Assembly: GCF_000143535.2 (NCBI RefSeq)
Contig: NC_037327.1
Coordinates: 62,001 to 126,000 of the forward strand
Reading direction: 5' to 3'
Length of the DNA: 64,000 nt
Origin: Botrytis cinerea B05.10
Taxonomy: Eukaryota > Ascomycota > Leotiomycetes > Helotiales > Sclerotiniaceae
Shown here: positions 19,641 through 49,157 of the stretch, piece after piece
Numbering within the stretch: the stretch's first letter is position 1
Layout of the letters: each line of letters opens with the position of its first letter
The notes under the pieces: generated by a model
Database searches by the model: none
What the model was told of the DNA's origin: nothing
The model's input: only the letters and a program-made list of their open reading frames with translations
Position numbers and translations under genes: made by a program

Positions 19641-22088
19641 AGAATTACTAAACATTTTTCATTATATTCTTCATTAGATTTATTAATTGAATCTGTTATT
19701 TATGTTCTTATTTATTAAGTCTTTTATTAGATTTTTGATATAGATTATTTCTTATCATTTTCGTTACAATTTTTTTTTTCATGGCTCAGATTTTATTAAA
19801 TATTGTAATTCTTATCACAATATTCATGATAGTTTAAATTAAAATTCGATATTATAATTTCAATTCAGGTTCCGATTTAGATTTAAATTCTAAGAATTCA
19901 ATGGTGAAAATGTTCAAGTTGGACATGTCTTAGATATCAACACCTACATTTTTAAATATATTCTTAAATACATTTTTAAACATGTTTTTCGAGTTTCAAT
20001 CGATTGTTATTACTATCATTATAAAACCTGATTTAAAGTCAAATAGAGATTTTGAATAACTTGAATTGATTTATGATTGTATGTTCGATCAAAAATAATT
20101 TAATAACTTTACTTCTCTTATATGTAATTATAATAACCAAGTTTTGATACCTACCTAGGTATCTTTATAAACTTGTTTTCTTTCAACTATAAAACTGAAT
20201 TTTAATTGATTAATTATTTAATACTATATCTAGGTATCTATAATCAATTAAGAAAAGTTATATACATTTAATACAAATATTCTGATTATATAGATATTTA
20301 ACTATATAGTACGATAATACAATTCTATTTGATTCTATGAATTTATAAAGAGGTTAAATAATAAAATTACAATATATTTCTTACACTTTGATTTCTTCTT
20401 TAAATTCTCATTAGATTTGAATTTAGATTTTAATCTAGAAAAAAGTTTACGTTAAATATACTTTAGCTGTTAACAACCCCTACTTTTGAATATATCTTTA
20501 ATTGATTTTTTGAAATTTCAAACAATTGATATCATTATCTACTGTTATAAAGTCTAACGAATTCAGAATTGAGTATTTTTAAAACCCCCTCAATTCATTT
20601 AATCCGATTATTACTTTTTTAATTCCTTTCTTGATTCATTGGAGATTATATATTGAATGAAGATGATTTATAAGTTGCCTTTGTCTTACTCATTTAGATT
20701 AATCGAACTTTAGTATTTTCATAAACTGCTTTTTTTCGTTCGATTAGAAACTCTAAATTCTAATTTCTTGCTTTCGTTATTTAATAGAAATCAAATTGAA
20801 CTATAGTATTATTATACATCTATATAATCGAGTTATTTTTGTCAAAAATACAGTGCTAGACAATTGAAATAAGGCGAAATCGCAAAACATACCTAGGTAC
20901 TCAAATTTATCGTTTTTCATTCTTTTTAAACTCTCATATTTTGGAACCCTTTGAATGGATTATAATAAATTTTCGACGTATTTTAAAAATTCATGTGAAT
21001 TTTAACAAAAATAAAATAAATGTTTTAATACATCATTTCGTTTTGATTTAGTTGATTAAGGATAATCAAACTTCTAAAAAATCATTTTGTGATTATTTTA
21101 TTAATCAATGTAATATATTTTGATAATTTTTTAAAATATCTAGTTTTAAATTGTAAATTTTAAATAAACCAAAATCCTAAAAATATTTGATATATTTTTT
21201 ATAAAAAAAAGTCACTGAACTTCTATTATGTTAAAAGATTTCGATTATTAAAATAGTTTCTATGAAGGATTATATAATATTAAAAAGATGAAAAATTGAT
21301 TATTTTTAGTGTATTTTTGGGTTATGGCTTTTTTCAATTGTAGGTCATTGTATATATATAATCCTCTCTAATTAATTGTAGATGAAATACTAGTACCAAT
21401 TTAAAACTTTTTAATACAATTATATTAAACTTCTCCACAAATTTATATAATGTACAACTTTAAAAACTGAAAGAAATTGAAAAACTAGTAATGCAACTGA
21501 ATAAATTAAAAGTTACTTGAACTTTTATTTAAATTTAGATTAATTCTCATATTTATAATGAAATTGATTAATTAAAATATAACGAAATCAGTTTAAGAGA
21601 TTTAAAATATATATATATAGTTGAAAATGAAAATAATTGATATTTGTAGTATGACTAAATTTCAAATTTTGCTATATTGGAGTCGAAATCAAAATTACAA
21701 TCTAAATAATAACTCCAATAGTTAAAAATCCGACAAATAAAGTTTTGAATAATAGAAACATAAACTAGAATCTAAACATACATTCAAAGAATAGGAATCT
21801 AATAGTCAAACAGCTGTATAAGAAATTTAAACCAAAAAATTAAAATAAGAGTTGTACAATAATTTTATTATTTCATTATTCAAATTTTAAATCATTAGAA
21901 GAGAAGAAATTGATAACAATAAGAATTATAATGATGATGATGATGATGAAAATGTATAGTACTTTTATATAATAACTAAAACTCAAGTTGTCTCTATATA
22001 TCTTATATTACACCATGGTTATCATTTGAAAGATAGAATCTATTTATTTCTTTGTATGTGTGTATAGAATATGTATATATTGGTGATA

Positions 22089-22211
22089 TCAGTCGTTGGG
22101 GACAGAGAAACTGAAGTTTCTAAAATAAAGAAATTTCAAAATTAATAATAATTAATATAAAAACAATTTACGAATCCGCAGTTTGAAAATTTTTATTGCT
22201 TAAGTGGCTAG
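22089..22211. mobile_element. Short MITE of CTAGCCGTCGGGG family, copy 2
   Basis: A 123-bp element lies between TA dinucleotides at 22087-22088 and 22212-22213. Its left end TCAGTCGTTGGGGA is a transition-mutated form of the family TIR. Its right end, read in reverse, starts CTAGCCACTTAAGC and continues CAAACTGCGGATTCG, the family sequence. The interior phrase TTTCAAAATTAAT is shared with the copy at 25350. There is no coding capacity. Confidence 0.75.
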
Positions 22212-23946
22212 TATTCAATTGTATGAAATAGCTTTGTACTTTCTTATAAATCTTTTCTTTTAATCTGGTTATTATTTTTGTAATAATATCTTAAAACAGA
22301 GAATACCCAATTCCAAATCATTTATCACAATCACGAAATCTGAAGTTCATACATTCAATAAACTTAGATACAAACCTTTTCCAATTTTAATAATAAATAT
22401 ATACCTACGTACCTATACTCTATTTTTTGATTATAATAGTTGAGAAGTAACACAAATATATTGATTCAATTCCTTAAAACGATTAAGTAATTTTGTATAT
22501 GATATTGAAAATGAACTTTAATATTATATCGAATATGACGTAAGAGTTCTGGGCCCTGTTCATAGCACCTCTTCTATTTTTCAACCACTTTATATTGAAT
22601 TTAATAATCATCCAAAATTATATTATTTATTAATAAAACTTGATGATTTATTAATGAATAATAACTAATCTTTTAATTGCATTCATATTCTCTAATTTTT
22701 ACATTGATATTTCAATATATATCCTAAAATGTATCAAATTGGTTCTCTTTCAAAATACTATTAATCTATATTTCAATTTACAAGTAGAAATAACTATAAG
22801 TAATAGTTTTTCTTAGCTCCTCTTTTATTTATTATGATATTTTTTCAATTGAATGAGAATTGAATGAAAAGGGAGACTAATCAAAGTCTTACTTTAGTTG
22901 AGTTAACCTAACATAGTTAGAATGAATTTTAAATTTATTTTATATAAAAATTAGAGAAGGGCTTAGTCTTTGAATAGTGAAAAAAACAATAGGCTCAGGT
23001 ATTTGATTATAATATATTGAGCTGGTAATACTTTTAGCTTTTGATTTTTTTATGAAAAAAGGTTTGCAATTTATAGTTCTATCTGATTATTTTTCATATT
23101 CTTACTAATATTATTTTTGATTAATATACCTAGGTATTGATTTAATAAATAAGGAATATCTTTTGTTATGAACCTTTTTAATAATCTAAATACTATTACT
23201 TTTTCTCTCTTTAAAAGAGCTTTATTTGATTATATAATTTTTTTTCAATTATTCTTTCTTAGATTGATAATGTTGATACCATCAATCTCTTAATATCGAT
23301 AAGTTTATATAGAATCTAGTTGCTTTTTTGTTTGTAGTCTTGAGATAAAGGATTTAGAATATACTATATAATATTTACAGTTATTTTGATATAATTTCTA
23401 AGGAATTATATAAATCAAAGCTTTGATTCCTAGTATATTTTTGATTTGCTCAAAATCCATTCTTTTTTTTGATTCGAATTTTGTCAATGTTCTTACATTT
23501 TAACAATTTTTTTTAATTAAAGTTGTGAAAAGTTGATACATTTTCCTTTTATATATAATCTTATAAAGTTGACTCAATTTTTTTGGGATTTTTCACTAAA
23601 TACTTATAATAAAATATTAAAAATAAGGTGGCTAGCAAGAGTTCACTTAAATGTATAGTAAAAAGCTTTCAGAACTCCTGTATGTCCATGTGATATCTTA
23701 TCACGCTTACCTTAGTTTAGGACCAGTTTAAACTAAGCGCTACTTTAGATAAAAGAGATCAATTAGATAAAAGATCTTTTTCCTCTTTAACTTTCTTATT
23801 CTAGTCATCTAACCACTATTGATTTGCTCTGGTATGTGATCGTGACAAAGGTTATATAATCTTATTTAATTCATTAATAATACTTGACACCGATTATCTT
23901 GATAGAGAATTTATAAAAGAATTTATTAGTATTATAATTAACTTTA

Positions 23947-24453: not shown

Positions 24454-25349
24454 GATAAATTGATACTATCACTATTATTACTATTACTACCAAAATTATC
24501 AAGAAAAGTAAATTTTTGAAAATTAGGCATTAAAATGATTAAAATTAAAATACCTAGGTACTAAATATTCTTGTCACTTACTTTACTTGCTTAGAAATGT
24601 ATACGAATATACAATATAATTATAACAGTGTATAGTAATGCAAAATTCTTTACCTAGGTACTACACATTCAGATATTATTGATATTTTAGTTTACATTTA
24701 AACTTGAATTCTTGTCACTAAAAATAAGAGAGTTATTCTCTTAAGACTTTGTACATGCGTAGAAATAAAGGGGGTAAATCTGTACTACAATATGATATAA
24801 TCAAAATCTATATACCTAGGTGACTTAGCCTTTTTCATGAATACGGCACACACAAATCCCATTCTGATTGGTTATAAATAGCACACTAGCATTGAAACAA
24901 AATTATTCCGTTCCCAATAGATAATTATAAGCTTCGATTAAATATATAATCTTAAGTTAATGAACGGAATTACTGTGAAAATGACAATCTAATCGAATTG
25001 TTTAAAACGTTTTCAAATGTGCTTTGAAACTTAGGTTAAGTTTCATAATAATAATAGTATCAACCGAGATACATTTCATACGATACAACAGGAGATAGAG
25101 ATTTTAATACCTGGAATACATTTTAGTGAAAGATTTTTCTGAATTAGAATCTGAATCTGAATCTATAAAAGAAATCTAATAAGCAGTAATTAAAGATAAA
25201 AATATATACTCAGTCTATAGTTCAGTAATCAAATTATCAGAGCAAGATAAATTAATAATAATTAATAATTGACACTCAAGCATAGCGATAATGTGGGGCT
25301 TGCAGTTATATATTATAAATTTATAGTATATCCACACACAGCAATAATA

Positions 25350-25475: not shown

Positions 25476-28439
25476 TAATAAAATTGCAAAGATTTCTATA
25501 AAAAAAAGTTCAATTTTATCAATGCTACTTTTTCTCTTTAGATTATATACATTTAAGAAATCAAAACATTGTGATAAACAGATCAATTTTATGAAAATAT
25601 TCGATTCTAAATTGTTTATCGAGATCAGAAACCCCAGAATTTATGTATTTAATGTATTTGTAATCTTCCAAAATCAATTATTACCTAGGTAAAATTTTAA
25701 GGATAATCTCAATATATCAGTTATTTTCAAACACCAACACATTAATATTGAAATGAAGATCAAAACCCGGTATATAATCATGAAAGATATGAAAAAAAGA
25801 GAATAATAATTTATTATTTTTGATTAATTGAAAAACGAATGAAGATTTATTAAATATCAATATATAAAATATCAAAATGAAAACAAATAACAGTAGATTT
25901 ATATCTTCTTAATATTGTTTTTCAAGTTTTCAATGAGAAAATAATCAAAGCTTACCTAGGTATATATATAGATCACAAATGCCTAGGTGTATATTAAAAA
26001 TTTCCTTACCTGATCAATTAAACCCTTAACATTATACTCATAATGTATTCTTTATCTAATAGTACCTACTTAGCTAAACTAGATTTCTTATAATGAATTT
26101 AATATATTATAATTTGATTTATTATCAGATCATCAATATCACTGAATCGCCACTTCTCATACTATTCAATTATTTCAATTTCAATATACAACATTTCAAG
26201 GAATTATTATAGAAATATTATTGAAAGAAGCTCGAATTATCTTAGTTATTGAAACTAACTTCTTATAAATCTAAAAATCTATCAATTATTCAAACTACAA
26301 AACTCTATAGTGTTTCGATTTATATTATAAAAGAAAATCAATAATTGAAATAATCGAACAGAAATTCAAATAAATGATTATAAAATTATAAAATTAGAAA
26401 TGATAATTATGTAATGTATATTCAATATAGATTTAAGAGAATTGTTATTTAAATTGAAAAAATGTAGAGAATATAATAAATTATATTTTTGTAATTAAGG
26501 GATATAAATTGTATTAGAAAGGTTTTAATATATTGGTTTTTAAAGTATTGAACTAAATTAAAATGCATTTTAATTATATTCATAATTTTCAAAAAGGGTT
26601 TTAAAAAGATTTTAAGTGCAATGAAAAGTGATTTTGATTGTTTATGAATATATAAGTGAAATGTTATATTTTGGATGATGATTTTTATAATTTCAACAAA
26701 ATATGTTTTATAATAAGATTTATGAATATAATAATACCTGTCATTAATATGAAGAAATACAATAAAAACAAAATAATATAGATAGATAATTGAAAGTAGA
26801 TTATAACAATAATATATGGAAATAAAAAAGGATTAAATTATTCTTTTGTTTTTGATATTTTGAAAACACATTTATTTTTTTAATTGATATGATTAAAAAA
26901 TTTCTTTCACAGAATACATTATTAAATTTATATTAAATAAATAAATCATGAAACAAATCTAAAACAGTTGAAATATTTATATAATAATGAAACTAATGGA
27001 TTTATTGAAATAAATATCAAATATATTTTGAAGGTTGAATTTTTTTAACTTTTGAAATTTCATATAACAAATCGATTATTTTTTTGAAATATGAAATTAA
27101 GATTCGAAAAAACAAATTCAATTCTATTTAGTTTGAAATTTTATTTCTCAAATTATATATTCGAATTTGTATATGTATTTATTATTTTTTCAATATATAT
27201 CAATAAATCTCCTAAACTTCTTATAATTCAATTAAAACTGTTTCTTGATCAATTTTAATAAAATCTCAAATACTTTACTATCAGTTAAATTTTTTCATAT
27301 CTATTCTTGAATTTACATCAATTTTAATTAAAAATACAAGAAGATTAGTTCGAAAAAACAGTTTTTTAATCATAAAGGATTACATATGATAATTAGTGAA
27401 TATAATATATTATAAATATTAATATATAAAATTCTTTTAATTATAATAAAAAAGTTTATTAAATAAAAAGCTTTCAATACATTATTTCAACAAAAGATTG
27501 ATATTTAGATTCAATACAATGAATATCTAAAAGAAAGAAGTTTCAATACAGAAGTGTTCTTTAATCGCTATTATAATAAATGTGCAAAGATAGAATATAA
27601 TATAAGAATTCGTTAAAACAATATAATAGATTCTAGATTGTTGGATTCTTAACAATTTTAATTAATTGATTCAATTGTTATTGAATAATATAGATTTAAC
27701 GTGATTGAATACCTAGTATGAAAAGTAGTGATTCGGTGATATTAGCGATCCAGTGACAACCAATTATATATATATATATATATTAAGTAATTCTAATGTA
27801 ATTGAATTCATTTTTTGACTTAATATTATATCACTATTTAACTCTTTTTAAGCTCTCAACATACTCATCAATATATCCAATTACATAGAATTCTTTATGC
27901 GTCTTCTTATAAGAATATAAGATTGATTCAATCATTCATTTTCCATTACTTGTTTTACAATCTGAATGTTATTCAATTAATGTTTGAAATAAAATGACAT
28001 TGGTTTTGGAAATGAATAATAAATAAAGTACTAAGTAATTTTAATAATATAAACTATAACTTTCATATATATATATTCAAATAATTGAATGCAAGATCGA
28101 TTCAATTATATTAAGAATTAAACAGTTCATTTTTAGTATCTTTCTATACTGGAGGTTTAAGAGTAATTCGCAATAAACATTCTTAAAATCTCAATCAATT
28201 ATATAATCAGGAATGTCTTCATTAAATATCAAAATACCATAACAATACATAACAAAAAACTAAAAATATTAAAGGTCGATTGCGAAAGTACATAAACTCC
28301 TTTGTTTTTTATAATATATCTAATATTGAATAGGTAATTAAGTAGTTCTTATAGACAAATCTACAATTCTTCTTAGTTAATTAATATAATCTAGAAGTAA
28401 TATGACAGAAGTCTCAAATATATTTTTAAAACATATCAA

Positions 28440-28903
28440 GATATTAGATATGTATTTTTAAATATCTAGTAGTGGTAACATTAATCGTATTGATTTATAT
28501 TCAAAAGATGTTATTAGGGATATAGAGATATATTAAACTAAAGATTTTGATTTAATATAAAGTCCTGTTTTATAAATAAATCAAAACTATAAAAAGAAAA
28601 AGAAATCTTTATAAATAATTCTAGATCTCTGATTTAACAATGATAGATACAATTCATTTTCGTTTCTAAAAAGTATTTCCTATTTTATTAAAGTGAGATT
28701 AAAAACAAAAGCTTTTATTATATGTTTACTAACTATTCAATTAAATTTCTTTCATTTTATATAAATTAAAAATCAATAAAGAAAAATCTGTTTACAATGT
28801 TATTAATTTCGTTATAAAACTTGCTATTGGGCTTACAGATTTAATATTTTATAGATTCATAATTAACACCACGTACAAATGGGAGTTCGGCTTCTTACTG
28901 GCC
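28440..28903 (+). repeat. Dispersed repeat X, copy 1, ending GGAGTTCGGCTTCTTACTGG
   Basis: This aligns with 34790-34907 plus 35422-35695, where a MULE-like MITE interrupts the sequence, and in inverse orientation with 38137-38790. Shared landmarks are TGATTTATAT..AAAAGAT, TATTAAACTAAAGATTTTG and the terminal GAGTTCGGCTT. Around 28560-28580 it preserves the uninterrupted version of the MITE target. Confidence 0.65.
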
Positions 28904-28906
28904 TTA

Positions 28907-29275: not shown

Positions 29276-31482
29276 TTAGATATCTATAAATCTTGAAGCA
29301 TTATTGAATTTTATTAATATTATAAAATTGTGGGAAATGGAATCATTTAGGAACGTATCAATTTTCTATAGCCTATAAATTCTATAAATTTTATTAGTAC
29401 CTAGTACTATTGTCATTATCATTATTATCATCAAACTTCAATTTGTCAATGATAAGAATTAATAATTCTAAAAAAATACTTTTCTTCTTATCCTTGAAAG
29501 ATATAAAAAGATTTATAAATTCAACCTTGTTATCATTCAAACCTCAATCATTCCTGTATTCAATAAATAAAGTTCTAATAATCAAGTGATAATATAATGA
29601 ATCCTTATACCTATGTAAGTGAAATCTTAGATGAATTGATGAAATTTTATATTACTACCCATATAAGTCGTTCCTTTTCTATTGATTCCAGCAAAATTAA
29701 TTAAAACTCGTTGAGGTAGGAGAGAATTGCATAGATTAACAAGTAGAAATAATATATATAACCTGGAAGCTTTCAAAACTGAATTTCTAATGAAAAAATA
29801 CTAGTATTGATACTAAAATTAAATCGTCGAGAAAACATTTATTGTAGTTTCAATTAATCTGAAACTTTTCAGAAATTTGAATATGAATTGAAATTTAAAT
29901 TAGACAGTACTTACAGCATTAAAAATCTAATAAATTACGTTTATAACATTAAAATTTTTAATTGCATATATTGAATATCATAGGTATTTAAAATCCTAGA
30001 ATCTATTTATCTTTGACTAAAATCTACAATATAATCAAGATAGTATGAAAGTAATTTACAATACCTAGGTAAAATTAAAAGTAAAAAACATATCTATCTA
30101 TAATTTTTTCCCAAAGAAATATAATGAGGTATCTATCAGTGCTTTATTTAATCATTAATATAAGATTTGAATATCTAGGTAAAATATCAGAGACGTTTCA
30201 ATCTTTAAAATCATGTTTCTATTAGGGATGAATAAGATTTTAAATTCGAATAAAATAATAGAATATTTTCAAAACTAATACTTCTTGAAAACTTATAAGT
30301 CACTGAAAGGTTCAGGCTCTTGAATTTGTCTTTGAAAGTATTTAAAAATCTTGAACTTGAAATCGAATTAAAATTTATACTTAATGTATTAACTATTCTT
30401 TGATTAATGAAAAATAAATTAATAATAAACTTATATAATATAAGAAGGCGAATCTGCATTATAATATGATATTATCAAATACCTTTATTGCCAAGGCATT
30501 CGATAATTAATATATTGAGTGTAAAACTAATATATTGAATATGAAATGTCATTTAAATTAGTATAAATGATATGGAAAATTTGATTAATTGAAGTACATT
30601 CTTATGATTCTAAAAAAAACTAATTATAATATCCGAACTGGTTTATTATGATCAAAAAAAGTAGATGAAATTTAGAAAATCATTTAAGATCAACAATCAA
30701 TCTTAAATATATTGATAATATAGTTGAAAAAGAAAATTCAATGAACCTTATTCAAAGAGTCAAGAATATAGGTATTTTTGCATTCATTTTTCGTTTTAAT
30801 ATAGTAAAAAAATTAATGAACCGAAACTCGAAAACAAAGATAACAATGATCAGAATATACCTACTTCAGTATCTAAAATAACCATATTTAGGTAAACTTT
30901 CAATTGTTATAATATAAATCAAATTCTGAATCGCATTCAATTTAATGTAGGCATATCAACAAGAGACACAAATGTGAAATTAAAAAAAAGCTTATTAGGA
31001 GATTTGGTCGGAAATTTGAAAGAAAAAATCTAATAAAAAATAATCCAAATAAGAATTGTATCACTTCATGAAAACAAACAGAATAAAATACATAATGTAT
31101 TATACATTCCATATATTTAATACATTTCTATCACTAGGCTATCTTTACAATTTGTAGAATATCAAATCTCTTTTAATTGTTTATAAGTAATATACTAAAC
31201 TTTTAAATCAATAAAGTTTCATTAATTCTTATTGAAAATGAAAAGAGAATTATTAAAATATCAAACTTTGATTTTTCCAATCTTTAAATTAAGAAATCAA
31301 AAAACAATTAAAAAGATTTAAATGTATTAAGTTGCAAAATGCTATAAAAACTCATAGTATAATTTGATTATACTTATAATCTTCAAGAGGCTTTATATAA
31401 AGACTCTAAGATTAATTGAGACTAGGTAGCTTAACATGATACGTATCATATATATAAAAAACTACGACAAATTAAATCATAA

Positions 31483-31730
31483 TACACAAACTTTTTTTTG
31501 GCTTTTTGTGGTAAAAGAAAAGTAGTCGTATTAATATTTTTTATAATCATTTTTGATGTTAGGTACCTAGGTATTCAGGATTTATACTTATACTTGTGTT
31601 ATGTCGCTTTTAAAATTTTATATTTCAAAAACATTTGTAGTATTTAATACTTAGGAATTTTAAAGCCATTTGAAGATTTAAAGCTTGTTAAAATGATACC
31701 TAATCTATATGCTAGCTTAAATGTAATAAA
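31483..31730 (+). repeat. Dispersed repeat copy B, with an extra 12 bp containing CCTAGG
   Basis: Same family and orientation as copy A (19370). The end reads TACACAAACTTTTTTTTGGC. At 31562-31573 this copy has AGGTACCTAGGT between segments that are adjacent in copies A and C. Confidence 0.6.
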
Positions 31731-32508
31731 TCTAAATCTCTTTCTATATTTGTTTCTTGCTTTCTTTTTAAGTCTTTTCCTTTCAACCTTTCTTGAAATG
31801 TAGTTCTGTATCCATTGCTAAATCGTGTTTTTTAATCCTTATAATCTCATAAATTTTATGAATCAATTGAGAGAAGTTGTTCTTTTTTAATTCTTTTTCT
31901 AAATTCATTTTATTCAATCCTTATTAACTTTGTGAAATCTAAAATCCTGAAGTCTTTTATCTCTCTCATTATGTTTCCAAATCTCTAAATTAATCAAGAA
32001 TATTAATTTAATTTATGAAAACCTTAAAAGCTCAAATGAATCATTTCTTCAATAGAATATTATTGATTAATACAAAGATTATCTTCCAAGGTTATCAAAA
32101 AGCCTTCAATTTATAAAATTCCATAATATTTTCTGATTTTATTTCATAAATCCTTCATTTGTAGTTCATTGATTTTTGAATTCTGAGATTTTAATATTCA
32201 GTACACAGAACATCTACAATCTTTCCTAACCAATCAACTTGCAATTATATAATTTGTTTCAAGATATCAACCTTAGAATTGAATTTTAATCAAATAGATT
32301 TCACAACAGAAAATATGAATACCTATTGATACATAGGGTATAATCATTATGAGTGTTAAAAGGAACAATAGGATTGAAGTAGTATGATGAGATAATCGAG
32401 AATATGTAACGGCGATGATATCTACACCTATAGGAGTAGCAGAAGAGAAATCATGTTTTTATTCTAAATAATTTAAGAGTAGACTCATTTTTTCAATTAA
32501 TATATAGG

Positions 32509-32510
<2 letters not shown>

Positions 32511-32556
<46 letters not shown>
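32511..32556. repeat. (AGT)n microsatellite, about 15 units
   Basis: A near-perfect trinucleotide array in AT-rich DNA, ending in ATTATTG. Confidence 0.95.
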
Positions 32557-34907
32557 TTATTGAATTGTACTAAGCTAAGGGAGTTATAGTAATAATTTAT
32601 TCAATAAAAATCCCAAAAATTGTAAAGGGAAGAAGGAATTCATTAACCAATAATACTAGGTTCCTGATTTTAATATATTACAATTTTATTACTTATTTCA
32701 AAAAGTATTCAACATCTTATTGTATATAGTTATATAATCTCTCTTTAGAGGTACATAACTTCAATTATTATTTATATAATTCCATTACTTTGTTTAAAAT
32801 AAACATATATTAGTTTGAATCATAAAAGGCTCTAGATGGTTCAAATCTTCCTCAAATAAACTCCAAATTTTTGTTTTAGAATTTTCATACCTAGGTAGAC
32901 TATAAACCCCAGAAATGTAAAAAATCATTATCTTCAAATTTATGAGATTCTTTTGTATTTTTTTCTTGGTATTTCTTTTTTTCCCCCTTACTTTAATACT
33001 ACTTATTCTTCAATTGATAAGATCAATCTTGTATTAAATAAGAACAATAAAGAAACTAATAGGAAAGCAACTGAGCTTTTAGAAAATAATAGTTCAAAGA
33101 GAAAGGTTTAACATCATGTATAGATTGTTAGAATTGTTAATATTGATGATTCAATTTTACCTTTATAGATTCTAATGAAAGAATCCTACTTAGGTTTGTA
33201 GAGGTCATTATGTACTCCTGTTGAATTTTTCCCCTCCAATTAATACACGGAAATCGATTCTTTTGTGGATCAAATCCTTGAATTCAATAAGAATTGATGA
33301 ATAAATAACAAGATAAAATTAAAATAGTTAGAATGATTTGATTGATATACGTACGTATCATTAGTTGTGGAGTGAGTAAATATTGAATAAATATGAAATT
33401 TATAAAATTTTAACTTTTTCATATTTCCTGGGTGTTTTATATTTATTTTTTGGAAGAATTTAAATTAAATTTATACTTGTTAGTACATGAAAGTCATTCA
33501 ATCAAATTATTTGACTTCGAATGTTGAAGGGATTGAAATAAGAATATAATGTTTAAACATAAATTTTTATAACAGTTTGTGATAGTTTTATTTCAAAAAT
33601 CGAATATTTTTTAATTTTTATACCTGTGTATCAATAGGTAACCGATTACAAATTGGAATATAAAATTAATATCTTGAAAAATAGGAGAAGTCTTTATTGA
33701 TCTCAAAATAGCATTTTCACCATTAGATATTTGAATACCCAGGCACACATCCCCATCACCACCCCCTGAATCTCTCAAATCTCTTATAATTCTGTAGCAA
33801 CTCTCTTGAATCAATATTAATTAAATCTCAAATCACTTGTTACGAATTACCTAGGAACCTTTATTTATATTCATATCTGATAAGATATTATGTACTATTA
33901 CTTAAAGATATTAAAATATCGATGTTTAAATATACATTTCTAAACACCGAAATTCTTTATTCTGAGGAGTTAATAGAAGATTAAACAAATGTTGAGATAT
34001 AGAAAAAAACTATAGTATAAGAATTCTTTAAAACGATGTAATGTACCATAGCCACTTAAATTGGTGATAGCTTCATTCAACTGATTTAATTACTTGCAAA
34101 TTATATAAATTCGAAAATATGAGTTGAAATAAGAATAGGCCACATAATGACATGGGTTGTAAAATATCAAATCAAACTATTCAAACAAAGTTTAGAGATA
34201 AAATGTTGAGGAAATCAAATGCTTATTGATTTTAAATCTAATTGTATGTTTTTCAAAGATTGTAATGTTTGATATATAAGAATACTCATTACAAATTAAC
34301 ATAATGTAAAACATTACCTAATTAAACTTTAATGTCTATTTAATGTTTTGATGTTTTAGTTATTTTACTTTAATTGTTTAACTAATTTCGGAGAACTTTT
34401 GATCAAAACACTTCTGATTAACTGATCAGTATTTCAAATTTCAAATTTTCAATCTTTATATAATTTCTGAATTTGATAGAAAATATGATTGCTAGATCTA
34501 AAAGTGCCTATGTACCTAGGTGAGTAGGTATTTGTAATGTTTAATCCAAATCGGAAGCAAATGAGCAAGTAATGTGAATAAATTTCTACATAGGTACCTA
34601 GGTATTTGACATTATAATTGTATTTCTATATAAGAAAAGATTTTCATCTATGTTTGTGATCAGAATATTGAGATACCCAGATAAACTTTTAGAGTTTATT
34701 TAAAAGGAGTTCAAATTATTTACAATTTTTCGTTACTTAAATCAAAATGAATTTACTTTGAATGAACCTTGAAAATAAAAAAACTATGTAGGGAACAATT
34801 ATAATTAAATACAGTAATGACGATACTGATTTATATTTAAAAGATCTGTTTTGGAGTATAAGAGTAGGTATACTAAACTAAGGATTTTGTTTTAACATAA
34901 AATTCTG

Positions 34908-36051: not shown

Positions 36052-37408
36052 AAAGATAAATTATAATATCAATGAATCAGAAGCTCAGGATTATTTGTCA
36101 AAGAATTTCTTTTTCCCTTCTTAATTCTTCAATCATACAAGACAACCTTGGAATATTAGATAATTTGTTAATATTATTCCTTAGCCTAATATATCTTCAT
36201 AGGAGATTTCCTCAGATATAAATCGATATAATTTTTGCTATTCTTACTATTTTAGTTTTGATATAATGTTATTTATAGTGAACGGCGAAGATTGAGTATC
36301 TGTAGGTATAAAATGCCTTCTAGAAATCTATAGTTGTTTTATTAGAATCTAGACTTAGAGTTACGATTGAATTATCGACATCTATGCTGAGTAATCCATA
36401 GGTTACATTCATTCTTTCTTTTTTGAATCATTTTTTTCCAAAAGTTTAATTATTTTTCTATTAATTATTTTTGAAATTTTTATATAATTTTGAATTGGTT
36501 TTATTGATTGAAAAATGAGCGATATATAATGACAAAATAGAATATTAGAACATAAATAGAAACGAATTCTTTGTTACAATTTGTTTTGGAATTTTCAAAA
36601 TCTATAGTCTATAGAAATATTAGAATGTCTACGTAAATCTCTAGGATTTGTTTGAAAGAGATTCTAATTATTTGAAATCTGTTATTACTTAAAGTCATAC
36701 TTCTTTACTTTAAAAAACTATAGAAGGAAAATAGAATAATAGTCATAACAATATATTAAAAGTAGTTGTCTTTAAATTTGTATATAATAAAGCTTAAAAC
36801 TCACTTGAAAATAAATGAAAGAGTTATAATATTATAAAATCAAAGACTTAAAGTTATTTATTAGAAAATCTTTTTTTCTCTCGATAATTTTTAGATTTTT
36901 TAAAAAATAATTTATCATTATAATTACCTACCTAATTTAATATATCTTGATATTTCTTAGGAGATCTTTTTGGATATAAATCAATATTACTATTCCTATC
37001 ACTAGTATTAATTATTATTATTTATACTATTTAACATTCGGAATCAAAACATTCAATATGAAGACTTCAAAATTACAATAAAAATAGAGTACATCATTAA
37101 AAATCAAAACAATGATTTAAGGTTTGGAATCTAAGATTAAATACTAAACTTTTAAGATCAAAATAATATAACTTGGAATCAAAAACGAAGATCTACATTA
37201 TCCATAGAATATATTCAATTATGAAAAATAAAATCAAGGTTATCAAGTGTGAAACTTAATTAATATAGAGCTATGTACCTAGGTAGATGATATTAAGAAC
37301 TATATACAACAACTTTTTGTAATATTTTTAATATACAAAATAATTTTAAAAAGAAAGATTGATAATAGATTCTACAGATAAATCCTAATTGTCAATCTAA
37401 TAAATAAA

Positions 37409-37879: not shown

Positions 37880-38136
37880 ATAAATAAAATGAAATTGAAG
37901 ATGTAGGTTCACCAAATTCTTCTTAATTTTATTCTGGATATATATACCTAGGTGATTAATTCTCAGCTAGTGTAAACCATAAAGAGAAGAGATCTTTATA
38001 AAGTTTCATTATTCATTTTCAACGTACAGATTCAAACTAAAATATTATGGTAGAGTTTTGTACTGGGATATATTATAAAAATGTTATTTAGTATGCTGAT
38101 GTATATATATATATATACCTATATACATGATTGTTG

Positions 38137-38790
38137 GCCAGCAGCAAGCCGAACTTCTACCTATGTATAGGACCGATAATAAATCTATAGTATATCAAGT
38201 TTTTAAACTTACTAAAACATTTATAATAAAATCAATATATTATAAAAAGATTTAGAAGAAGTATTAAACAAATTTGCAAAAACAAACAGTATCGTATTTA
38301 AGATTGCTTTTTATAATTAAAAAGAGAAGAAGAGAAATAAGCGAATATACACAATCAGTAAGAATTTTTCATATAACACATTTGAAATATATTTTTGTAT
38401 ACCTAGACATCTAATTAAAAGTTTCTGGTCTATATTAGATATAATTAAAATAACAGATCTTTATTCTAAAAAAAAAATTGGGGAAATTGTATTTAGAAAA
38501 TTAATAGTTGTTATATATCAAAGACTTTTATTTCTAGTTTGGGCTGATCAAAATAGAAAATGCTTTCTAAGAATGTAAAGAAATTATATTCTTATGGAAA
38601 CAGAGATTTGGAACTATTTATATACCTAGGTAAAGAAAACCTTTCTTTTACCTAAGCAGACTTTTGATTCGTTTATAAAACTAGAATTTTATATTAAAAT
38701 AAAATTTCTATCTTAGTATACCTATATTTAAAACTCTAGGGAGATCTCTTAGATATAAGTTGATACTATTACTTCTACTACTACTGTTTC
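38137..38790 (-). repeat. Dispersed repeat X, inverted copy
   Basis: It begins GGCCAGCAGCAAGCCGAACT, the reverse complement of the ends at 28903 and about 35695, and continues with similarity to the reverse of 34790-35660 (ATTTGCAAAAACAAA, AGAATTTTATATTAAAATAA, GTATACCTAT). A CCTAGG at 38625 lies inside. Confidence 0.55.
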
Positions 38791-39088
38791 ATATTACCAG
38801 ATTATCTAGACTCTAAAATGTTTGCATTAATTTAAAATGAATTCAAATCAAATAATCTTTCATGACAAATAAATAATTTTTTTTGTTAATCTTTACCTTT
38901 CTTTTCATCATATAGTCTTTGTTAATATGCTTGTTATAAACTTTGGCAATTTGGAAATTTTGATTTAGAATAATCCAATTTATAAATAATTAGGATAAAA
39001 ATGTTAAATAGCTTGGACTGACTATAGTGGAATATTTTAATTAGAAATGATATTATACTTAATATTGTGGAGTTGTAAAACTATACCT

Positions 39089-39112
39089 ACCTACCTACCT
39101 AGGTAGGTAGGT
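39089..39112. repeat. 24-bp perfect palindrome (ACCT)3(AGGT)3
   Basis: Three ACCT units meet three AGGT units head to head, with CCTAGG at the centre (39098-39103). It is the longest version of the block-wide palindrome and could form a hairpin. It suggests that the dispersed motif and ACCT/AGGT slippage are connected. Confidence 0.9.
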
Positions 39113-41081
39113 GACAAAATGTGTTAAACTTTATGATGGAAGTATTAATGTATATGATAGAATCATATTTGATAATGAACCACTCATAAAACCTCTTTTG
39201 CTTGGTTATAAATAAAATAGCAACAACAAAATGAAGTAATAACATTTCCAAAAAACTACCTAGGCAGGATAATCAAATTTACTTATAACTCGATATCAAA
39301 TACAAGTCGAATAGAATTAAGAGAACAATCAAAAACAGAATTAGATTCAATCAGTTGAAATTTTTTTGAAATCGAGATTCATTTTCAAATTGAATATTGT
39401 AATAGTATTAAAATCAGTCAATTGAAATTGGAAAAGATCAGTTGAGGTATGTTTGAAGAAAGATATATAGATATATAAAGTATATATAATAATTATTATC
39501 AGGGAAAAAGAAAATCAAACATGAAAGATTTCAAAATCTGAAATTCTGTGAATCTGAAACCTGAAAATATCCTTTTACCCAATTGTAAGTAGAATGTAAT
39601 TCAACACTAGGTACCTAGGTATAAAGAATATTATGAACTCAAAGAGCTGTAACAATTTAACATTGTTTGATAATGATATCACTAAATAAACTTTCGGATA
39701 ATTTAAAAATGTTATGTTATTACTTTTGAAAAAATACTGAAAGTCTTGACGAATAAAGAGACTACTCTCATTATCAAACATTATGTTGTTCTATTATCTT
39801 TGTCTTTATAACATAGTCTAACATAAATATATGAATAAAACATAAACATAAATATGAAATTAAATTGATCTTTATGTGCCTAATTATCACGAGTTAACAT
39901 TAGTATTATAGTCTTAATGCTAAACTTCAAAATAATCGTTTACGTGTGGCTCTTACATCGATTCTTAAAAGCTCTCTAAAGGATGCTCTTACTTTTTAAA
40001 TTGAACACAGATTCCAAATTTCATACCTAAAAGTTCATTAGATGTTAGGTTACCATTATAGTTTCTTATCTCTTTTAGATTCCGGAATAACATTTATATA
40101 GAAAGTATCTTGACTAGGAAGCATTGATTAATATAATAGGTAGGTATAGTACTTTTCAAAAGGTTCAACAATTGTAAAAGAGTCTACCTAGGTAGGGTTT
40201 AATATTAAATTGAATTCTTTTTATTATAATTGGCAAACCATAAAATCAAAAAAAATTGAAAATCTAATATCTCATGAATATATAGCATGAATTTAATTTT
40301 TTATCATCTTGATTTTTCGAATATCAATATTTGAAAAGGATTTATGATATCTATTTAGAGTCTTTATAGCTACCTAGACAAAGAAAAGTAAAGCATACCT
40401 AGGTGCTTTGATCTATTTAATTGGATTAAATTTTAATACAAGATTTTGAGCATTATAAAAAAGTAATGCAACTTATTATTATACATTAATGTAATTAGTA
40501 TAGGATTGAAACAAAATTAAAAAAGCCATTTATAATTATCATTATATCAATTCGCTTTATATTATTGTTATATAAGACTTTTCAGAGTTTATTCAGAGAG
40601 ATTAAAATTATATGTAAAATGAGCAGATAACTTTTTTCCTGTAAATGTTTCAAATCTTGATTGTGTTTATATAAAAATCGTTCATTGTCCTAATTAATAT
40701 ACTTGCTAATGTGTTCTTGCTTAAAACTTTGCTTTTTGAATATTTCTTTGTGATTTATTATCATTATATATATTTGATTCTAAATTTTGTGTTCCAACAT
40801 CTGACATGATTATCTTTAATATTTAATGTTAACAGAAAAATCGAAACTACGAATAAACTGAGCAATAGTGCTCATATATTTTCAGTAAATCCTTATATTA
40901 TATATGAATTAAATAATTTTGATATTCAGTTTAGAAAAGCGATTTTATATTCAATTCAAATTCACATTGCTTTTTATGATTCTGAGAATTTTATGATTTT
41001 GATTTTGTAATTTTTGAAAATAAGTGTTTGTGTAGCAAAAACAGAAATTAGAATGATGTATAAGCTAGTTTATAAAATATA

Positions 41082-41106
41082 TCATAAATCAATAATTGAT
41101 TTATGA
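41082..41106. repeat. 25-bp AT-rich palindrome
   Basis: TCATAAATCAAT and ATTGATTTATGA flank a single central base. No flanking duplication was seen. Confidence 0.7.
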
Positions 41107-44100
41107 AAGATCATTGTAGCTTACGATTCTAGAATCAGTCTGTTATTTCTCCTACATTTTAAAATATTATATACCTAGGCAACTTCAAATTTGAGTGTCA
41201 TAAGTTTCCATGGTTCCTATATATTTTGAAAGTTTATTAAATTCATAAATTATACTTTGAAAGTTAAGATATTAGGAAAAAGAGATATTTAAAGTATGAA
41301 TTTATAGCATCTTCTTCTCTTATTGATTACCTAGGTAAGCAATTGTTTCGATTGTAACCCTTCGGATTTTGAACTTCGATTTATTTTTTAATAGTGACCA
41401 CCGCGAACACATCTATAAACGCTATTGTGAATATTATTACCTAGGTACTTGATTGAATTTCTTGTTTGAATATTTTAGCAAAACTTCAATCTATTACGTT
41501 TCCACTTAGACTCTTAATTATCTAAAGTTTTAACAAATACAGCTTTTTTGATATTTTATTCGAGCAAATCAACTACTTATAAAAATCTTAAATAGAAATA
41601 TAATAGAAATATTAATATAAATTCACAATACTGAAATTTCTCAAATATTTAAGTCAAATATATTTTCCAAATCTCAATTAATTGATATAACCACCAAAAT
41701 GAAGCTTAATATAAATTTGAATACAGATTTTGAATGCTTTTGATCAATTCAATCTACCTAGGTAGGTGTCATTTTTTCGATCATTTTATCCATTTTTTTA
41801 AAATCATATATCAAATCAAAACACTATTTTAACACAGTTGGTATGATTGGAATACAACAATTACATACTATTTAGGCATTGAATACATTTAGGTAACAGG
41901 AAAACGAAATAATTATTATGTGAAAGGGGAAGGAAATTTATTACCCATAATTTCCAAGGTTCATCATCATTTCAATATTATTTCAAAATTTATGCCCAGA
42001 TTATGAAATTATTGGGTAAGTAAGAATTGATAAATAGAACGGATTGGAAACATTATTTTTAAGAATAAAGTATTCAAATCAACTAAAATTCTTATTATTT
42101 ATAAATATAAATTTAGCAAAGAAGATTGAATTATTAGATAAAATAGACTGTTTTAGGTTCGAAATGACATTATAGTTAAAACTTCGATAAAATCCTGATT
42201 AATACTACATTATGAAAGATGATATAATAACTATAATTGAATATAAGTCATACATATAATCGTAGTATTCTTTAGTATTAAAATATCAAAATTCATGTTA
42301 TTATTTCGAATTCTATTTATTTTATAGTGAAGATTTTATAGCTTATAATGTAGTGTAAAACGATTAAAATTGATTTACATATTTTGAAAATCTTTAAATG
42401 TTAACTTTTATCTTTGAAGCAATCATAAAATGACATTCTGCATAGCACATGAAGTCTTAAACAATGACCTTATGTTCGATCAGATTTGAAAATAAACAGT
42501 ATAAATAATTAAAGCGATTACATGAAACTGCCCGGGTATACATATATTTAAGATATTGTCGATATTTATTTTTTAAAGGTTTCCAATATTTTTGAAAACT
42601 AAATCTATAAGGTAAATTATGTACCTGTATTAAAGAGATTATAAACATTCTATTATCAATAAATATATGACTATCGTCAATAGATTTTGTACTATTTTGA
42701 TTCATTTTATTTCGATAATTTGAAAACCTTGTGGTGTAATAAATATCTTTTAAATTTTCTTAAAATCATATTTATTGAATCATTCAAATTAGAATTTTGA
42801 GAAATTGATAAAATCAATACATAAGATTATTATTAACAATCTCTCTTTTTTCAATTATTCATTAGCTAAGTTATAGCCATCTTCACAAGGAATTCTATTT
42901 GAGTAGAAAATATAAAAAAGATGAAGTCAACGATAATTCTTTTTTTAATAATTTAATTTAAATAAATAATTGAAAAACAGCAAAAAGACCAAAGCGCTGC
43001 TTTCCAATTATCGTATATATATAATACTATATTTAAATTCACATTGGTAAGATCGTTATTAATACTCAGATTAATGAATATTAAACTCTGCCCTTAATTT
43101 TCAGTATATTACTATACCTATTTAGTTTTAACTATTATTAGCCGAAACACCTTTTCACACGAAAATTTATCAGTTTCATGTATAGTTTTCATTATGATTA
43201 TCGATTTAATACAATTCTTTTTTTAATGAATCCATTTTAATATGATAATTCTTTTAAAGAATATAAGATCAATCATATATTGGATGTATATAAGTCAAAT
43301 TGTATGAGTATACAGAAAGTTAAAGTTTTCTCAAAACCATTAGATTTAATAATAAAATGAATGAAAATCAAATAATTTTTTCAATATTTTTATTCGACTA
43401 TGAGGCTTTCTATAAACAAATTTCTGAGGATTCGAATTATACAGAACGTGAATTATCACTATGAAAACAGTATCAAATTCAAATTCAGAATTTGAATAAT
43501 AAATCAAAAAGATTTTTATATTTGAAAATACAGTCAAGTCAAAACTTGATTTTTGACACAAAAATGCTCTTCAGCTGATAGCGGTTGACTAGTAGTAAAA
43601 TCCAGATTCATTTAAAAGCGCTTGAACAACTTAGTTTTAATTCGAAAGTTTTTATAATACCTGGGTATCTAGAAAGATTTATTCGTATTATTTAAATCAG
43701 AAGTATTCTTTAACGAAATTGCTCATAATCCGATGTTTACAGATTAAATATGAATAGCATTTTAATATTTGAAGTTATTTTTAACGTCTATATCTGCATT
43801 TTGACTAAGGATTTTCCGTTGAGCATTTCTTTAAAATATAATACCTACTACCTACTTCGATGATATTAACACAATTAAGATTGTATATGAGAACTATTTT
43901 TAATAATACCTGGGTGATTGATTAATTGTAATTTGATAGATTGAACTGAAATTGTTAGTTTATTTCAAGAACTTTATAAATACTATTATATTCTTTTAAG
44001 TGCATTTACACTGATTGTAAGTTAAATTATTCATATCCCCCTGTTATTATTTAATATCGAGTTGAAGAGAATCTTAGTCGTATGCAAAATCTATGATATA

Positions 44101-47100
44101 TTTATTTTTCATAAACTTTTTCACTTTTTCTCTAAAATGGCACAAAATACAATATTATTATTATTATTATTATCCTTTCTTCAAATATCTATTCAAGCTC
44201 TTCATGTAACACATGTTAAATTTTTATACTTTTTTTAATGAGAAATTCAAAAACTTCTAATCTATTCTTATTATACTTTTTATTTGTAAAAGCGACTACT
44301 ATATAAATTATTTTATTCTATATAACTATATTCAGGATTTAAAGTGATTTTATAATTCGCATGAATATTCGTTCAAATTGTATTTTTATAAAAATAAGAT
44401 TTTTGAAATGTATAGAAATTTCATTTTATTGAAGTAATAGTAGTAGTAGCAATAGTAACATTGATTCTGATTTGACATATGTACATAGATTTAAGACTTT
44501 ATTTTTTTTATTTTTTCGAAAAATATTAAGACGTATTAAGTTAAAATATCTACAATTACAATAATTAAATTACTATAAAACCTGTCCTTAAATTATAATA
44601 GATCTTATAAAATTAATAAAATAGATATATATTATTTTAAAATAAGGTTCGTCTTTATTATGAAAAAGAAAAGCAACTGAAAAGTCTAATTCAATATTAT
44701 AAAAGATTGAAAACAAAGAAAAAACTATGTCTAATCAGAAATGTAATTTCAATAGAAAAAAAGCTTAAATAAAAGCTGTTAAACGTATTCGTTCGATATC
44801 ATCAATATGGATATCTAAAAGATCAAATCAATGAAAGAAAAAAATAAAAAATAAAACTATAATATTTACTATATCCATTGATACAAAACTTTATGAAAAA
44901 TGAATATCCATCTAGGATTCAATAAAATTAAGGAGTTTTCTAAATCTAAATGATCTATTTATTAATCATGAAAAATATTTGATATTTTTCATAATTGTAA
45001 TTTAGAAAAAAATAATCGAAGCTCTATCTTTTCCAAAATCTTGAATATTTAATATAATAAAATATGAAAAAAAGAGTTTTTGTTTTATTTCCAAAAAAAA
45101 AGTTGAAACTAGTAGTTATATAATCGAATTTCTTAAATTATTAGACAAAATCCTTATGAAAAGATTTTATAATTAGAAAACTATATAATTAATATTATAA
45201 AAGTTCTAATGCAAGAAGAACCTTGATTTTGTATTCAAAATTCCACTTGAAATATCTAATAAATACTTAAATTTTTGTTTTATCTATTAAATTTATTATT
45301 TTATATACCAAAATCCCTTTGTATTAGAGATTACTAAATAACTATAAAATAAATTATATGATCTATGATTTTATTTATGATAAACTATCTATATATGTTT
45401 AAAATAATAATATTATTGATATTAACTTATAATAAATTTTTGCTATAAATAAATCTTCATTATTAGATGCAAAATCCAATATTTTTATAAATGTGCATAA
45501 AAATATAGGAATGGGAAACCTATTCTCGTAATTCGATTTCTCTTAAAAATGAAATGATATATAATTATTGAGTTTTAGATTGTTTTAGGTTTGATAATTA
45601 ATTTCTGTTTGGAGTTTTAAATACAAATAATATTAACTGAATTCGAAATATCCTGATTTATATTTGTTCTATTCATTTGAAAACTGTATTATCATATAGA
45701 AATAGATAAATAAAAATTATAACATTATTAATGAATTTATCTGTATTGTTCTTTTTCAGAAAAAATAGCATTTAAAACATTCAAGAAAAAAATTAGAAAA
45801 CTTTGAGAATATAATCTTTAACTTTTTTTATGTTTGAATATATCCTAAATAGAGATTACAAATGTTCCAATATTACATTCTTTTTGTAGAGAAAGTTTTT
45901 CAATATAATCTGATTTACATATGTATTTATATTTATATATAGTTTTATTATATTAATAAGTACCTAGGCAATTAAAAAATAAAATAGAACATTTATGACT
46001 ATTTATAATGAAATAAAAGTAATTCCTTTTCTTAATTGATATTTCATAGATTCATTTACACAAAATTACTTTATATTTGCAAATAACATAAATTTCATTG
46101 TAATTAGATTTGATATATTTGTGATTTTTATATTTGAAAATAATGAGGTAGTCTGAATAACTTGTAAAAAAGAATTGTGATAATTAATATAATAAGAATT
46201 GTTGATATATTTAATATTAAATATTTTACTTTATTAGTCTTTTGATGCATAGAAACTGTATTAATTAGAGGTTATCTACTATTGAAATTTATATAATTAT
46301 ATTAAGCTATGAACAATTCAAAAGAACTTACTTCAAGAATTTACTTTAATACTTTATGTTCTTTTCAATACTTAGCAAATCATATATAATAGTAACATTA
46401 AGTTTTATAAATTAATAATTATCAAAGTAATAATTTTAGTTAAAAGCAAAATAATATCTTTAATAACTTGTACTATCTAATAACAAAAAAAAGATTTTGA
46501 ATAACTTAAAAGAAGTTTAAGAATTATACTTAATCAAAATTCTTTACTTGAATCATTTTTGATTGTAATCAAATTCGTAATTAAAATCAATTATAAAAAC
46601 TTGTGACAATATTTCATTTAATGAATGATGATGGGATTTTTATAATTTCAATAATTTTATCCATTTTCAATAAAACAGATTTTGAAAACTAATCGATTAA
46701 ACTGCAGTTAAAAAAAATAACAATTTATTAATTTTCAACATAATCATAAAGATGAAATCATAGAAATTTAACTCAAATATAGAAAGTCTTTAGTTTTAAT
46801 ATAAAATAATATCATGGAAAATAATAGTATTATTTATACATGATCATAAATTATTTAAGATTTTAGAAATTTCTTAAAATAAAAACAATAAAGTTGTTGA
46901 TAAATCATATTGATGCTAATATCTTGTTATTACTTTAAAATAGTTAACAATGAAGAATTTGTTATTGAATGTATTCTATTAAATAGAAAATGAAATTAAT
47001 TAAAAATATCTACATTTTTTCTTCTTTTCCTTTTTATACTAAATAAATTTACCAATAATTAAGGGTTTTAAAACCTTATAAACTGATTTTCAGATTCCAA

Positions 47101-49157
47101 AAAAATTGAAATATATTGAATATTATTAATCAATACTATCACAGAACTAATAAAAATAAAGTAATACAAAAATACAAAGAATAATCATTAAATGATTTGA
47201 AAAAAGAGTATTAAGATATTACTAATTTTAGATTTGTTATATCGATGTGTATATGATTGATATTTTATTGAAGGACTTCTATTAATAAATTAATATTAAA
47301 CTTAAGATCAAAATTACTGTTTTACCTTATATAGATTCAAATCTATATTTCAATCTGATAAATCTAATGAATCTAGTGAATCTAATCAATTCATATTTTT
47401 TACATATTTCTTACTCTAAACTCGAATTAAAACACTATACCTATGTGCTCTTAAGCACTAAAAGGCTATTGAAAGAAATCCCTCTAATAATATTAAAAAC
47501 ACAAATTATTAGTCCTATATTATCGAGGCAGATATCTTTTTATTTTAGGGTTTTCAAAATTTAGCTCAAATGAATCAAAACCTATGATAATTTCCCACTT
47601 TCCATTGTAAATTCCAGAATAAACTTTAGATCCATTTCTTTAAATCCGAGACTCCAGTATTAATTCCTATTCTCTTATTATAGACTGTCTCCGTGAATCT
47701 AGATTCTGTCTTTGAATCATAGATTTTCTAACAAAGCAGTATAGAATCTACATTAATATCTATAAATATCAAGGTATCTGTTACGAATTCTGATAAATAT
47801 TCTTTTAAACTTCCAAATAACAGATTTTTGACAACATTGTAAATAATGATTCTATAATTTCAATTTTGGATCTTGATTTGTAATTATGAAGTCTAGTTAT
47901 TATAGACTTTATAGAGTAAAAGACTAAAATTAGGTTTATTTCAAAGATATAAAGTACCTAGGCAGGTAATTAAACTTTTTTCCAAGAATCTCAGAATACT
48001 TTTTTATCATCAATCAAGAGTTTACAATTAAAATAATAATTTAATTCGAACTTTCTTCGTTTGATAATATCCTTTTAAAAATACAAGTTAAGTTTAATAG
48101 AAGAACTATTAAACATTTAAGAATTACTATGATATGTATGATTCAATATAAAAGTAGAAGGACATTTTGAATTTGAGATATTGTATTGATTTGACAAAAT
48201 CTATAAATATATAAGTTTAAGAATGTTCTGAAAAAGAAATCTAAAAATCTATGAATCTAGAAATATTATTATCCAAGAGTCTGACTTAATATTCGATGTT
48301 TATTAATTATGAGTATTTTGATCTTCATTTTTGATATTTCATTTCCTACAAAGATATTTCAATTGAATTAAACATGTAAGTCTTTATAATAAACTTTCAA
48401 TTTAAATTAAATTAAATTTTCTTCTGTTGAAAATTAAACCAAAATATGAGATTATCTCAGAACTTTCAATTATAGATTTCAATTTTGAGATTAAGTTCAT
48501 TTATTATATCGAACAATATGTTATATTTCTCAATTTTTCCTTTATCTTTTTTTTGAGACTCTATATTATACTCATATTTCATTTATATCATTATCAAATC
48601 TTCCAATTTTAGTAAATTCATCGAATTATTATATTCCAGTTGGTTCGCTTATTTATATCAAAATCACATTAATAATTATTGAAATACAATTGAATTAGTA
48701 AAATGTATAAAATATTTGAATATAGAATGGTTTTTTCTTAAACAGTCTACCCACGTAAAAACTTCCTAATATTCATATTTTAAAATACATTTTATAACTG
48801 GAAGCTGATTGATCGAGAAAAAGTATAGATGCTTTGTATAGGAATATCAAAATATAAAACTCAATTGAATTAATAAATTAATTAACAAATTGAAATTAAA
48901 AGATTTACAGAATAAACAAAAATTATTATATTATTCTTCGAATCGAAAGCTTTTTAATAATATAATTTTTTTATTAATACACTATTGCTTATTGAAGGAA
49001 TGATTGATTTAAGAATTGAATCGAATCGAAAAAGTAGATTGAAGTTTTGAAGAATTGAATAAATGTTTTCGATTGGTTTGAAGATTTGGAAATGCAATAA
49101 AAATGGATAAGAAATCTTAGATTCTTAAATTTAGGTAAAAGAAAAGAATAAGAAAAG

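Follow-up and report, generated by a model that had tools for sequence, protein, structure and literature searches.

A 10-bp palindrome crowded into AT-rich, putatively centromeric blocks of Botrytis cinerea chromosomes, and evidence for its origin by 8-bp insertion

The palindrome-bearing block of chromosome 18

The stretch analysed here (the window) comprises 64,000 nucleotides of Botrytis cinerea B05.10 chromosome 18 (C18:62001-126000) and contains an AT-rich block of about 28–32 kb with 22% GC, through which the 10-bp palindrome TACCTAGGTA, a CCTAGG core bordered by TA on both sides, is dispersed. Exact-word counting over the 64 kb returned 19 copies of TACCTAGGTA (starts 20152 to 41755) and 29 CCTAGG cores (starts 20154 to 47957), reproducing the counts and coordinates of a first-pass annotation made from the letters alone, and neither word occurs in the window outside 20152-47962. 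The features are listed below in window coordinates, with no strand assigned; palindromes and cores are exact matches.

20152..47962 (C18:82152-109962), AT-rich block with all palindromes, candidate centromere of chromosome 18
20152..20161, TACCTAGGTA
20890..20899, TACCTAGGTA
23127..23136, TACCTAGGTA
24551..24560, TACCTAGGTA
24651..24660, TACCTAGGTA
24815..24820, CCTAGG core, TA-core-TG
25682..25691, TACCTAGGTA
25953..25962, TACCTAGGTA
25982..25987, CCTAGG core, TG-core-TG; the sole core of 98 (seven blocks, see below) lacking TA on either side
30062..30071, TACCTAGGTA
31564..31573, TACCTAGGTA with TAGG just before; by alignment, it exceeds a weak homologue from stretch L022 by 12 bp (E 1.5e-4)
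32320..33640, lead only: 1321-bp stretch, TA outside, imperfect 16-bp inverted ends CCTATTGATACAYAGG, possible donor-type remnant (1 match in 677 pairs, ~0.1 expected)
32888..32897, TACCTAGGTA
33850..33855, CCTAGG core, TA-core-AA
34515..34520, CCTAGG core, TA-core-TG
34595..34604, TACCTAGGTA preceded by a decayed tandem copy, TACATAGGTA
37276..37285, TACCTAGGTA
37947..37952, CCTAGG core, TA-core-TG
38623..38632, TACCTAGGTA; by alignment, 10 bp longer than the homologue at window 28482-28686
39096..39105, TACCTAGGTA nested in TACCTACCTACCTAGGTAGGTAGGT
39259..39264, CCTAGG core, TA-core-CA
39612..39621, TACCTAGGTA preceded by a decayed tandem copy
40185..40194, TACCTAGGTA
40398..40403, CCTAGG core, TA-core-TG
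41174..41179, CCTAGG core, TA-core-CA
41328..41337, TACCTAGGTA
41438..41447, TACCTAGGTA
41755..41764, TACCTAGGTA
45963..45968, CCTAGG core, TA-core-CA
47957..47962, CCTAGG core, TA-core-CA

For window 20001-52000, 200 dinucleotide shuffles gave on average 0.98 CCTAGG (maximum 5) and 0.02 TACCTAGGTA (maximum 1), and first-order Markov expectations were 0.85 and 0.01, respectively. A third-order model predicts 0.19 TACCTAGGTA vs 19 observed, and by the score used this word is the top over-represented 10-mer of window 20-52 kb. Counts in AT-rich DNA at the level of such nulls, set beforehand by the annotation as an outcome that would speak against its reading, were thus not found. The sample was one genome, that of B05.10 (18 contigs, 42,630,066 bases; C18, chromosome 18, has 208,766 bp), which contains 702 copies of TACCTAGGTA vs 62 of the reversed word. 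The corresponding figures for ACCTAGGT are 1092 and 886, and for AACCTAGGTT 15 and 83; the 8-mer alone is therefore barely enriched genome-wide and it is the two-sided TA form that stands out, so the flanking TA is part of the unit.

Seven blocks totalling 88 kb, picked because the palindrome is present in them, harbour 98 CCTAGG cores and 76 copies of TACCTAGGTA, vs 0.11 expected from a second-order model, while each of 29 palindromes of equal composition occurs at most once in the same DNA. The second most over-represented word, TAGGTACCTA (n=12), belongs mostly to tandem copies. The half-site TACCTA, both strands considered, is found 334 times in these 88 kb vs 24 times in 93 kb of AT-rich control DNA. 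TA borders 76 of the 98 cores at both ends, and 97 at one end or more. Further out than the 10 bp, the flanks (125 neither nested nor tandem, 27 omitted) differ little from those of ordinary TA steps, with a smallest p of 0.022 over 14 positions, as expected if the target is TA. The near-identical context ascribed to every copy by the annotation accordingly holds for the adjoining TA and stops there.

Common ancestry within a longer repeat was rejected for most copies, since 81 of the 98 cores lie outside all segments that blastn at E 1e-3 shows to be repeated inside one of the seven blocks or shared by several (the other 17 lie inside), their flanks not aligning between copies at that threshold; the second adverse outcome named in the annotation, all copies belonging to one longer repeat family, was likewise not found. 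Within window 37001-42000, the only parts found again in the genome were 37380-37897 (~520 bp) and a marginal 76-bp match, in a search that skipped simple repeats and whose counts are lower bounds. The spacing of cores in the seven blocks is irregular, from 8 to 4206 bp.

One cluster per chromosome

On C18, TACCTAGGTA is absent outside 80-112 kb, and four further AT-rich stretches of this chromosome (93 kb together) contain none, with two CCTAGG. The distribution over the genome was analysed with copies having AT-only neighbours, for which three selecting patterns with complete lists yielded 159 distinct sites. When the best 40-kb window of each chromosome was compared with 2000 random placements, clustering was significant on 16 of the 18 chromosomes (p 0.005 or less), two minichromosomes included; these windows cover 1.7% of the genome and hold 124 of the 159 sites, and outside the cluster a 40-kb window has at most one such site. 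Motif blocks were placed, among others, at C2:2.384-2.401, C3:2.598-2.619 and C16:0.532-0.552 Mb. Samples of 10 kb on C3, C6, C12, C16 and C17 have a GC content of 0.208-0.223 and 9-15 cores each. The AT-neighbour subset gives no cluster on C1, where one is shown by a separate route: seven copies, among the first 50 listed of 702, fall at C1 755-765 kb (L022; GC 0.222, 9 cores), bringing the number of chromosomes to 17. In terms of density, the chosen blocks hold 76 copies in 88 kb vs 43 in ~3 Mb of C1 with the cluster there set aside, the latter among the first 50 listed. On at least 16 of the 18 B. cinerea chromosomes, the palindromes are thus concentrated in a single AT-rich block.

By position and composition, the only grounds used, these blocks are putative centromeres. 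Low GC, size and absence of genes have served to predict the centromeres of B05.10, and the chromosome sizes given are 4.11, 3.34 and 3.23 Mb for Chr1, Chr2 and Chr3, 247 kb for Chr17 and 209 kb for Chr18 (available part of PMC10971195). The blocks resemble in size and GC content the Hi-C centromeres of Monilinia, a relative of Sclerotinia, which are described in the accessible portion of PMC8022979 as spanning 29-41 kb, with 17.7-33.8% GC and few genes. A shared mark of this kind would be unexpected: centromeres of Magnaporthe oryzae and Zymoseptoria tritici are reported, in the portions at hand of PMC6667624 and PMC4589918, to lack a common motif, whereas a 10-bp word recurs here, and those of Verticillium have a whole retrotransposon in common according to the text available from PMC7482064. 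A centromeric mark common to all chromosomes is put in doubt by the lack of a demonstrated cluster on C7, whose copy at 1.10 Mb was dropped as an eighteenth cluster since it sits in DNA of GC 0.418 (L072).

The motif block also differs in dinucleotide composition. Its CpG observed/expected ratio (C18:82-110 kb) is 0.69 vs 0.99-1.33 in the four AT-rich stretches elsewhere on this chromosome, and its CpA/TpG is less depleted (0.98 vs 0.76-0.89), which suggests a mutational history unlike that of blocks of the repeat-induced point mutation (RIP) type. Simple tandem repeats are present as (TAG)n at window ~32509-32555 and as a 12-bp TAGAAAGAGAAT unit at 49162-49231.

Filled sites, empty sites and decay

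The first alignments (13 and 36) of copies inside old repeats revealed gaps at the motif, mostly of 6-10 bp where alignments were long, weak or short alignments often giving other lengths or none. One homologue (L029) carries a mutated motif, CCCAGG. For comparison, 20 further members of the repeat surrounding the C12 sites were taken; at site L027 4359 the sequence is AAAT-TACCTAGG-TACAATAT in C12, while the other members have AAAT-TATAATAC or nearly so (18 rows, one misaligned). Around this site some repeat copies have CA where others have TA, and insertion may therefore have followed a RIP change.

Extra length was then measured by placing the two flanks ungapped. Among 70 exact non-tandem sites, nine had homologues at E 1e-6, and at six of these nine, 8 bp was the modal or joint-modal value. 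In particular, the extra length (number of homologues in parentheses) was 8 (16) and 7 (1) at L027 4359; 8 (9), 3 (4) and 9 (2) at L027 3917; 8 (2) at L029 9345; 8 (4), -13 (3) and -15 (2) at L025 5042; 8 (1) and 7 (1) at L029 6911; and 8 (1), 7 (1) and -1 (1) at L029 5912. At control positions, +8 was obtained in 1 of 276 comparisons and 0 in 183. Homologues thus commonly lack 8 bp exactly at the motif, which indicates that an insertion turned TA into TA-CCTAGG-TA: at the majority of the few sites open to this test, the copy arose through the addition of 8 bp (CCTAGG plus the second TA) to pre-existing sequence, old transposon relics included. The absence of these 8 bp from homologous repeats exactly at the palindrome is new here, and a literature search gave no paper on the palindrome motif among the matches listed. 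Tandem and nested arrangements are consistent with new units having entered the TAs of an earlier copy. Strong self-targeting was dropped as an explanation, the central nest being found in only 7 of 702 copies, as were longer hairpin precursors of the form TACCTA...TAGGTA, with few cases and no clear family.

Several observations count against a uniform 8-bp insertion into TA. The testable sites are few (n=9), and three of them have other modal lengths: 10 (1) at C18 100623, 11 (1) at L026 1949, and 2 (6), with -12 (1) and -1 (1), at L027 3538. Five of nine homologues of L025 5042 are at -13 or -15, only one of three at L029 5912 is at 8, and one strong homologue of L026 1950 (C18:81450-81587) shows no gap. 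Finally, one flank is CA or TG in 16 of the 98 cores, so that a pyrimidine-purine step, and not TA alone, may be what is targeted.

With exact sites masked, the seven blocks yielded, besides the 76 exact copies, 47 with one mismatch and 76 with two, vs means of 0.03, 1.7 and 32.6, respectively, for the 29 control palindromes of equal composition. In the one-mismatch copies, changes are distributed over the five half-positions as 12, 9, 8, 12 and 6 (28 transitions, 19 transversions), the core being no better conserved than the edges. Such a spread over the whole motif is like neutral decay and unlike a guarded binding site; although numbers are small, the pattern resembles what would result if a single unit had been added over a long time, each copy then mutating freely.

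Origin and meaning of the palindrome

The explanation that we tentatively favour, while giving it somewhat less than an even chance, is that a TA-targeting DNA transposon with CCT...AGG ends left scars enriched in centromeric chromatin. A cut-and-paste element of the Tc1/mariner/pogo type, with ends 5'-CCT...AGG-3', would insert at TA, and on excision three terminal bases from either end would remain between the duplicated TAs, a fixed 6-bp palindrome resulting if both 3-base overhangs were kept. Arrivals and departures of the element would have been far more frequent in centromeric chromatin than elsewhere, with a second, sparse set of copies in non-coding DNA between genes. A precedent is the footprint of Tc1 in C. 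elegans, named as taCATGta in the available text of PMC3520976, which is alike in being a short palindrome between two TAs in existing sequence; it differs in having the 4-bp CATG, whereas here the 6-bp CCTAGG occurs in hundreds of copies, in one block per chromosome, with no one-sided scars and no proven donor. Of the options raised in the annotation, scars of a mobile element are hence backed by the 8-bp filled and empty sites as far as insertion is concerned, the donor being unproven.

The main difficulty for excision scars lies in that donor. When C18 and nine further 10-kb stretches were scanned for TACCT...AGGTA pairs having inverted ends, no donor was proven among the best 25 candidates, which included three non-trivial cases, two of them explained otherwise. 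Candidate 61654-63468 sits inside a longer inverted repeat, so that element ends are not there, and a foldback repeat of AGATTCTA type with an inner TA-CCT step (C18:24274-24613) has its true end at CGGCAAATTACTCTCATACCC, an end present in 12 of 14 further foldback copies (L050-L063). The third, window 32320-33640 (C18:94320-95640), lies inside the block, with TA outside and ends CCTATTGATACA(T/C)AGG. CCT ends gave 1 match in 677 pairs vs 18 in 126,287 for the end triplets taken together, CTC ends giving 3 in 116; with ~0.1 expected by chance, the ~tenfold excess depends on one match and this case is a lead. Profile searches gave 53 matches to DDE_1, including 4 open frames of 533 aa and 12 of 598 aa, and 9 to DDE_3; the ends of three DDE_1 families, one copy each, are TA-AGTTGAG, TATATAACG and TAACGTG, none of them CCT, and one Tc1-like gene has no inverted ends in the stretches examined. 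A PF01359 search returned no match here nor in any control genome and therefore says little. One-sided scars are typical of many mariner elements as part of the mixture; TACCTTA/TAAGGTA were seen 7 times vs 24 expected, an expectation raised by the motif's own triplets.

Features of other kinds were noted as well. An inverted repeat at window 61387-63735, with 435-nt arms 93% complementary and 1479 nt apart, is possibly a long-ended mobile element. The foldback family at window 37380-37897 has 110 genome matches (a lower bound) and lies near many blocks; by eye, its copies L053 and L059 have apparent flanking 9-bp duplications, as in Mutator-like elements. The twelve 598-aa open frames (C1:3756685 and 11 other places) have equal DDE_1 scores and no stop, and are probably a young pogo-like family. 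On the minus strand, an open frame at window 58656-59147 matches Peptidase_C48 (Ulp1-type protease, E 3.6e-8), and the open frames beside it (58138-60521) have no Pfam match.

The main rival of excision scars is direct micro-insertion, in which an enzyme or break repair at a centromeric TA would add CCT to both 3' ends and join them, the 8-bp unit itself spreading. Insertion length and TA duplication fit this process, as do the lack of a proven resident donor in the scan above, the lack of enrichment of one-sided scars and the clustering in one block per chromosome; the fixed sequence is more simply explained by transposon ends, and we know of no enzyme adding one fixed triplet to both DNA ends. 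Micro-insertion is considered unlikely, though a serious contender, and excision footprints are preferred over it, not proven. We put slightly lower still the prospect that a self-propagating 8-bp unit (CCTAGG plus TA), with no longer element, marks the otherwise unrelated regional centromeres of nearly all chromosomes. The annotation had compared such a unit to the GC clusters of yeast mitochondria, which are short palindromic insertions into AT-rich sequence and reportedly duplicate a short stretch of their target. The insertion in this comparison stands; the likeness to GC clusters goes no further, since the present unit is on a nuclear chromosome (C18), has 8 bp of one fixed sequence with a 6-bp core, and is not GC-rich over tens of bases.

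A binding site retained by selection, for a CENP-B- or Cbf1-like protein acting at centromeres and between genes, appears improbable. The CENP-B box and the CDEI/Cbf1 sites are short centromere-tied motifs with copies elsewhere in the genome, and the palindrome is comparable in its perfect dyad, its one block per chromosome, the enrichment of half-sites TACCTA and the non-coding appearance of the copies examined outside blocks: of eleven in seven C1 loci, one lies in an open frame of at least 150 aa, vs 43% of random positions. Selection cannot create repeated 8-bp insertions, however, and mismatches at all positions and the irregular spacing likewise argue against this reading; in contrast to those motifs, the palindrome shows no protected core, arises by insertion and has no known binding protein. 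The option of a centromere or heterochromatin binding site put forward in the annotation thus keeps its centromere link (16 of 18 chromosomes, and C1) and is weakened as to binding, although the scars could have been usable by a protein afterwards. Small palindrome groups away from the AT-rich blocks were also noted at C1:484764-485359, C1:514560-515088 and C1:1302197-1302310, with local GC ~0.4 and several TACC or TAGG extensions. Least credible of all is a by-product, either a surviving RIP-proof word or pieces of one longer repeat family. The word does lack CpA, TpG and CpG and 17 of 98 cores are inside shared segments, but RIP survival was rejected on the excess over Markov nulls, the AT-rich C18 stretches without the palindrome and the rarity of same-composition palindromes, and the limited recurrence of window 37001-42000 speaks against a longer family; the counts already contradict this reading.

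An over-represented intergenic palindrome may, as a caution, be a scar and not a binding site. As an insertion with recognisable empty sites, the word records a process that favours this chromatin and lends itself to dating and to tracing across isolates, and, if the blocks are centromeres, it would be a ready marker in Botrytis assemblies, pointing to one candidate centromere on most chromosomes of this model plant pathogen.

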